Positions 46,906 through 48,354 of a DNA stretch of 64,000 bases are shown piece after piece (positions within the stretch are counted from its first letter, which is position 1; each line of letters opens with the position of its first letter). Origin of the DNA: Methanofollis fontis (lineage in GTDB: Archaea; Halobacteriota; Methanomicrobia; Methanomicrobiales; Methanofollaceae). The notes under the pieces are model-generated. The model saw only the letters and a program-made list of their open reading frames with translations, did no database searches and had not been told where the DNA came from. The stretch spans positions 434,001 to 498,000 of the forward strand of contig NZ_PGCL01000001.1 in the NCBI RefSeq assembly GCF_004297185.1, read 5' to 3'. A program made the translations under genes and the position numbers.

Positions 46906-48354
46906 TCAGCCCCCGAAGAGCCCGATCCCGAACATGATCAGGATGGCGACCAGCAGCCCGAAGATCGCAAAGGTCTCGGCCATCACCGCAAAGATCAGGC
47001 TGGGTCCCATCGCCCCCTCCCGCTGGGCCGTGGCGCCGATGCCGGATGCGGCCGTCATCCCCTGCCCGATCGCCGAGAGCCCGGCCAGCCCGACGGCGAA
47101 GCCGGAACCGATCGAGGCGAGGCCGGCGGCCACGGTGGCGGTGATGTCGCGGGTGATGATGCCGGTGAATGCCATGATCAGGATGGCGACCAGCAGCCCG
47201 TAGATCGCCTGGGTCTCCGGGATCACCGAGAAGACCAGCCCCTTTCCGAACATCCTTTCCTGCTCGGCGGTGGCGGCGATCCCGGCAGAAGCGGCGATCC
47301 CCTGCCCGATGGCGGAGATCCCGGCGAACCCGACGGCGAACCCGCAGCCGATCGCTGCAAAACCGGCGGCGGCGGTGGCGGTGATGTCGCGGGTGATGAT
47401 GCCGGTGAATGCCATGATCAGGATGGCGACCAGCAGCCCGTAGATCGCCTGGGTCTCCGGGATCACCGAGAAAACCAGGGAGCGGCCGAATATCTCGTTG
47501 TGCTCGGCGGTGGCGGCGGTGCCGGCGGCTGCGGCGATCCCCTGCCCGATGGCGGAGATCCCGGCCAGCCCGACGGCGAACCCGCAGCCGACCGAGGCGA
47601 AGCCGATCGCCAGGTCGCCGACCGGGTCGCCGGCGATCATGCCGGTGAATGCCATGATCAGGATGGCGACGAGCAGCCCGTAGATCGCCTGCGTTTCCGG
47701 GATCACCGCAAAGACCAGCCCCCGCCCGAAGGTCTCGCTGTGCTCTGCGCTCGCCGCCGTGCCGGCGGCCGCGGCGATCCCCTGCCCGATGGCCGAAAGT
47801 CCGGCGATGCCGACGGCAATACCGCACCCGATGGCGGCGAGCCCGGTGGCCTCGGTCGCCGCCGCACTCCCGCTCAGGAGGCCGGTGAAGGCCATGATCA
47901 GGATGGCGACGAGCAGCCCGTAGATCGCCTGGGTCTCCGGGATCACGGCGAAGATCAGGCTCCGCCCCATCGCCTCGTCCCGTTCGGCGGTGGCGGCGAT
48001 CCCGGCGGAGGCGGCGATCCCCTGCCCGATGGCAGAGAGTCCGGCCACCCCGGAGGCGAGTCCGGCGCCGACCGCCGCCAGCCCCAGGGGGAGGGGCACG
48101 CTCTCCGCCCCCCCGCCGATCACCCCGGTGGAGAGCAGGATCAGCACTGCCACGAGCAGGCCGTACATCCCCTGTGTCTGCGGCACGGCCTGGAAGACCA
48201 GGGCCCGCCCGAAGCGTTCGGGCCGGACGGCGATCACGCCCGCCCCGGTCGCCCCGGCGATCCCGACCCCGATGCCGGAGCCGATGGCGGCCAGCCCGAC
48301 CGCCAGTCCGGCCCCGATGACGGCCAGCACCAGCCCGGCGTCCACGACCGTCAC
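46906..48354 (-). CDS. atpK: A-type ATP synthase K subunit (proteolipid), six fused hairpins
   Basis: A 482-residue rotor protein made of six hairpins of 80 residues each, that is 12 membrane helices. Hairpins two to five each carry a complete ion site: Gln in SAIGQG of the first helix, and Glu-Thr plus Tyr in IPETQAIYG of the second (Glu140, 220, 300, 380). Hairpin six keeps Gln431 and Glu460 but has Phe465 instead of Tyr. Hairpin one has lost both: Ser26 for Gln and Gln59 for Glu. The QxET..Y set fits a sodium-type site, but proton use is possible. Typical proteolipids have one or two hairpins. The last bases of atpI overlap its start. Confidence 0.93.
46930..48330 (-). repeat. Six tandem coding repeats, 240 bp each
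   Basis: The hairpin-coding units of atpK. Plus-strand blocks such as aatgccatgatcaggatggc and cagcccgtagatcgcct recur every 240 bp at about 47.17, 47.41, 47.65 and 47.89 kb with few differences. The inner units are nearly identical, so unequal crossover or gene conversion is likely. Confidence 0.85.

Follow-up and report, generated by a model that had tools for sequence, protein, structure and literature searches.

How many ion sites does a rotor protein carry when six hairpins are fused into one chain, and what part is played in them by a first hairpin that has no carboxylate? The question is raised by the atpK gene of Methanofollis fontis, which lies in the stretch of 64,000 nucleotides analysed here (the window; contig NZ_PGCL01000001.1, positions 434,001–498,000; all feature coordinates below are window positions). 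We consider it very likely that its product, K, serves as rotor subunit in the organism's second A/V-type ATPase/synthase, which is probably coupled to Na+, and that K is of the type of Enterococcus hirae NtpK, with five sites in each chain and a blank seam where one chain meets the next.

The K gene and its operon

The atpK open reading frame (46,906–48,354, minus strand) begins with a GTG codon, overlaps the stop of the subunit I gene by four bases and encodes 482 amino acids, in which six fused hairpins are matched by Pfam PF00137 (E-values 4e-18 to 7e-14, above the curated cut-off) and five composite Na+ sites are predicted. NCBIfam K models also match the product above cut-off, and TRF detects a tandem period of 240 bp with 79% identity in the DNA. 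A sequence-only reading of the window had given this length and the six hairpins, both of which are borne out, and it had correctly listed the carboxylates Glu140, 220, 300, 380 and 460 and the Gln59 of hairpin 1; the exact 80-residue period that it proposed holds from Glu140 onward, Gln59 and Glu140 being 81 residues apart. The repeat number on which that reading depended is real, and an assembly error is excluded as its cause, because about 35 distinct proteins, some of them from single-contig genomes (G004, G105, G108, G119 and G120), show the same six-hairpin length and residue pattern.

The gene is placed between the I and E genes of a complete A/V-ATPase operon, which runs along the minus strand in the order HIKECFABD with all subunits open and intact. 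A putative H-like peripheral stalk subunit (50,296–50,661), assigned from its position and its charged, coiled-coil-like sequence and with no Pfam match, is followed by subunit I (a; V_ATPase_I), the stator channel (48,351–50,321), and by K; then come subunit E (46,315–46,902), the rotor cap C (45,134–46,318), F (44,826–45,137), the catalytic subunit A (43,066–44,829), B (41,681–43,069) and the central stalk subunit D (41,040–41,684). Subunits A and B score below the cut-offs of the archaeal equivalog models TIGR01043 (899 vs 972 bits) and TIGR01041 (732 vs 845 bits), respectively. A further minus-strand gene, with a GTG codon overlapping the stop of D, encodes a 36-aa protein with one transmembrane segment (40,933–41,043), possibly a tiny subunit; similar small transmembrane reading frames also stand 3′ of D in many relatives, including the deltaproteobacterial L081 and L085.

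Since a canonical one-hairpin K (L112), accompanied by I, E, C, A, B and D of its own, is found 0.2 Mb away in the same genome, the HIKECFABD operon is the second rotary ATPase of this genome. Within the genus, one-hairpin K occurs in all 12 genomes and this second ATPase in 4 of the 12; six-hairpin genomes that were checked in full hold seven to nine PF00137 matches, and therefore at least one further ring protein each.

Probable half-sites at the two ends of the K chain

NtpK of the E. hirae V-type Na+-ATPase (2BL2) is the best match of K in both sequence and fold. K residues 5–154 were aligned with 2BL2 by phmmer (E-value 4e-19), and an AlphaFold2 model of a single K chain (pLDDT 89, pTM 0.89) agrees with 2BL2_A to 1.4 Å over 150 columns (TMt 0.88). 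In the E. hirae protein, hairpin 1 contributes Leu61, Thr64 and Gln65 to Na+ binding and hairpin 2 contributes Gln110 and Glu139; Tyr68 lies beneath the ion (PMC2359735). The phmmer pairing sets Thr60-Gln61-Tyr64 of K on Thr64-Gln65-Tyr68 of NtpK, and Gln111/Glu140 on Gln110/Glu139. Read in this way, each Na+ site in K would be built by two adjacent hairpins, a donor that supplies a backbone carbonyl, Thr, Gln and Tyr, and the next hairpin as an acceptor that supplies Gln and Glu.

We compared the hairpins by the residue 29 places before the carboxylate and, after a slash, the TM2 motif. Hairpin 1 (residues ~5–84; 48,103–48,342) has V/PQTQ..Y, hairpins 2–5 (residues ~85–403; 47,146–48,102) have Q/PETQ..Y and hairpin 6 (residues ~404–482; 46,909–47,145) has Q/AETF..F; the last hairpin of NtpK has VETY where that of K has AETF. 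Hairpins 2–5 are complete, each with its TM1 Gln (111, 191, 271 and 351), its Glu (140, 220, 300 and 380), Thr-Gln and Tyr. Hairpin 1 retains the donor residues Thr60, Gln61 and Tyr64, with Val30 and Gln59 where Gln and Glu would be expected, and hairpin 6 retains the acceptor residues Gln431 and Glu460, with Phe462 and Phe465 where Gln and Tyr would be expected; Thr461 is still present and conserved in hairpin 6, the Gln and the Tyr being the only donor side chains lost at the seam. Two details of the sequence-only reading change here. Ser26, which it had taken to replace the Gln of hairpin 1, aligns with Ser107, and the equivalent residue is Val30, which precedes Gln59 by the spacing of Gln111/Glu140 and of NtpK Gln110/Glu139; in hairpin 6 it had rightly recorded Phe465 for Tyr and had missed Phe462 for Gln. 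Over 21 aligned six-hairpin proteins that are 65–91% identical to K, every donor and acceptor position is invariant, as are the residues that replace ligands in hairpins 1 and 6, Gln59 included.

According to the explanation that we favour with high confidence, hairpin 1 would act as a donor half, hairpin 6 as an acceptor half and hairpins 2–5 as both. With only a donor at one end and only an acceptor at the other, the chain would hold five whole sites, at hairpin pairs 1/2, 2/3, 3/4, 4/5 and 5/6, and would have none where it joins the next chain. K shares with NtpK the division of ligands, Thr-Gln in a first hairpin that is a donor half and Gln-Glu in a last hairpin that is an acceptor half; it differs in having six hairpins and five sites, where NtpK has two hairpins and one site per chain. 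K may be described as a proteolipid of the NtpK type in which the two hairpins of NtpK are separated by four complete ones, and the five sites and the seam of the sequence-only reading gain support from these half-sites.

That reading had, however, called hairpin 1 dead. On such an account the chain would consist of six independent sites, the first having decayed to a spacer, and a ring would be left without two of its twelve sites and would pass fewer ions per ATP. Hairpin 1 does lack the carboxylate and its Gln, but Thr60, Gln61 and Tyr64 are invariant in it, and of these it is exactly the Gln and the Tyr that are missing from hairpin 6. Because such complementary ends are already present in two-hairpin relatives and in NtpK, they look ancestral and not like decay. 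We therefore judge a dead spacer improbable; hairpin 1 should instead supply Thr60, Gln61 and Tyr64 to the site ending in Glu140.

Two other archaeal proteins with fused hairpins can be set beside K. The protein of Methanocaldococcus jannaschii resembles it in having several fused hairpins, and the best NCBIfam match of K is NF004913, a 220-aa K model; the difference lies in the number of hairpins, three against six. Hairpin 1 of the M. jannaschii protein probably also lacks a carboxylate. Methanopyrus kandleri has a long fused rotor chain as well (PMC2359735), in which all 13 hairpins carry the full ligand set and there is consequently no blank seam, whereas hairpins 1 and 6 of K are half-sites.

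L112, the canonical A-type K of this genome, shares PF00137 with the six-hairpin protein and differs from it in having a single hairpin; its Glu lies in TM1, and its motif, PETI, puts Ile at the position of NtpK Gln65. Under the ligand rule of PMC2359735, Gln at this position goes with Na+. It is Gln at all five K sites, for which the rule predicts Na+ as the ion, and the Ile of L112 predicts H+.

Fused K chains across the family

Full-length genes for six-hairpin K were found in all six family groups across 232 genomes of the class. Some 35 Methanomicrobiales genomes have a K of the same length, and several of these genomes consist of a single contig; among the named carriers are Methanogenium marinum, Methanocalculus taiwanensis and a Methanofollis MAG. 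Genes with three hairpins are present in other members of the Methanomicrobiales and genes with four in L074, L125 and L126; those with two hairpins come from Deltaproteobacteria MAGs and from other archaea. The two-hairpin K of the Deltaproteobacteria MAGs (L079–L086, L095) and the three- and four-hairpin K of other archaea (L096–L103, L125, L126) have the same terminal half-sites and motif as the six-hairpin form, with fewer complete hairpins between them. In 70 distinct complete proteins, 21 with two, 11 with three, 3 with four and 35 with six hairpins, the predicted sites number one fewer than the hairpins (n−1), the first hairpin having V/QTQ..Y, the last Q/ETF..F and the remaining ones Q/ETQ..Y.

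The lone exception among complete genes, L127 (G240:C1:75000-90000), is a three-hairpin K with PQTQ three times, Thr or Asn for the TM1 Gln and no Glu at the ion position. It directly precedes a K of one hairpin that has every ligand, and the pair may form a mixed rotor with few sites. At L126 (G236:C1:917000-934000), in a single-contig genome of 1.07 Mb, the four-hairpin K is the only ring protein found, and an ATPase of this type can apparently be the sole one of a genome. The only ring protein found in G277 is a one-hairpin K of 87 aa (L133) that has the same motif and holds every ligand in its single hairpin. In G095 (L139/L140) and G021 (L131/L132), contig ends interrupt the gene, which apparently has at least five hairpins. 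A restriction of hairpin counts to divisors of 12 (1, 2, 3, 4 and 6) was not adopted, given these genes and the 13 hairpins of Methanopyrus. In the draft genome of M. cariaci JCM 10550 (L073), the gene for six-hairpin K is spread over several reading frames, probably by sequencing error, and this gene was left out of the analysis.

The same comparison bears on whether the chain stays in one piece. Inter-hairpin loops exist in the model and could be cut, so that K would be a polyprotein giving single hairpins for an ordinary heteromeric ring; the length and the distinct first and last hairpins are nevertheless kept over about 35 genes, which is sensible for a whole chain, and we infer that K remains uncleaved, processing being quite unlikely. 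An ion site built at the seam from other residues, raising the count to six per chain, is less credible still: Thr461 is conserved in hairpin 6, but Gln59 and Val30 are invariant in hairpin 1, which offers no carboxylate, the centre of known c/K-ring Na+ sites (PMC2359735). Equally hard to credit is a second ATPase that is non-functional or little used, as its presence in 4 of 12 genomes of the genus might suggest, given that all its subunits are open and intact, that the ligands are invariant over the order and that four-hairpin-K relatives, such as the one in the single-contig genome G236, apparently have no other ring protein.

The literature search covered open-licence papers, in which no description of a six-hairpin K or of second ATPases in Methanomicrobiales was found; two-, three- and thirteen-hairpin forms related to this six-hairpin form with n−1 sites are known.

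History of the hairpin expansion

In a tree of subunits A, B and I, the six-hairpin genes form two groups, and three-hairpin genes are the sister of one of these. In trees of the hairpins themselves, first hairpins cluster together, as do last hairpins, but the inner ones tend to cluster by lineage. Descent from one six-hairpin ancestor with positional orthology was rejected for hairpins 4 and 5 (AU p = 0.027 and 0.017) and not for hairpins 2 and 3 (p = 0.18 and 0.08). We favour two or three separate expansions to six hairpins; gene conversion could yield the same picture.

Ring size, ions per ATP and the subunit C helix

If its chains are whole and alike, the ring must contain a multiple of six hairpins. 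Known rings have 12 hairpins (24 helices) in T. thermophilus and 20 (40 helices) in E. hirae (PMC6199243); the latter is no exact multiple of six-hairpin chains, and a ring of that size is therefore excluded for whole chains. Two, three or four chains would give 12, 18 or 24 hairpins with 10, 15 or 20 sites, and as many ions per turn, from which we computed 3.3, 5 or 6.7 ions per ATP. The two-chain ring of 12 hairpins is possible, and the sequence is just as compatible with 18 or 24.

At any fixed ring size, six-hairpin chains hold more sites than chains of two, three or four hairpins. More ions per ATP make synthesis possible at a lower ion-motive force, and ATP synthesis is presumably the main direction of this enzyme. 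The sequence-only reading had argued the reverse, namely that ten ion sites over the twelve hairpins of a two-chain ring lower the ions per ATP and that this suits small energy gains. Measured against two- and three-hairpin relatives, six-hairpin fusion raises the ion number at fixed ring size, and fewer ions per ATP would demand a larger ion-motive force.

Subunit C, of 394 residues, starts with an extra transmembrane helix (residues ~18–40) that is also present in the archaeal members examined with a readable start (among them L087, L128–L130, L133 and L096–L106) and absent from the canonical C of L112 and from deltaproteobacterial C. The remainder of the protein folds like known C/d subunits (6ly9_M, 1r5z), which cap the rotor ring; because these sit atop the ring, the helix probably enters its lumen. 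For other rotors it has been suggested that c″ helices inside the yeast ring may help to keep the axle centred, and that in E. hirae the empty ring allows it to tilt (PMC6199243).

These features could be parts of a single evolutionary gear, set by the number of hairpins per chain, which we put forward tentatively and regard, taken jointly, as rather doubtful. With blank seams at chain ends, fusing two, three, four or six hairpins would raise the ions per turn at the same ring size (6, 8, 9 or 10 sites per 12-hairpin ring); six hairpins would have been reached more than once, from ancestors with three or four; and the membrane-anchored subunit C would thread the lumen and hold the axle.

Ring size normally fixes the number of ions per ATP in rotary ATPases. 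Within this one family, chains of two, three, four and six hairpins occur with one blank seam each, so that the number of active sites could change by gene fusion alone. In many Methanomicrobiales a second rotary ATPase accompanies the first and is predicted to use a different ion, and the evolution of the gear ratio would be directly testable in culturable methanogens such as Methanogenium, Methanocalculus and Methanofollis.
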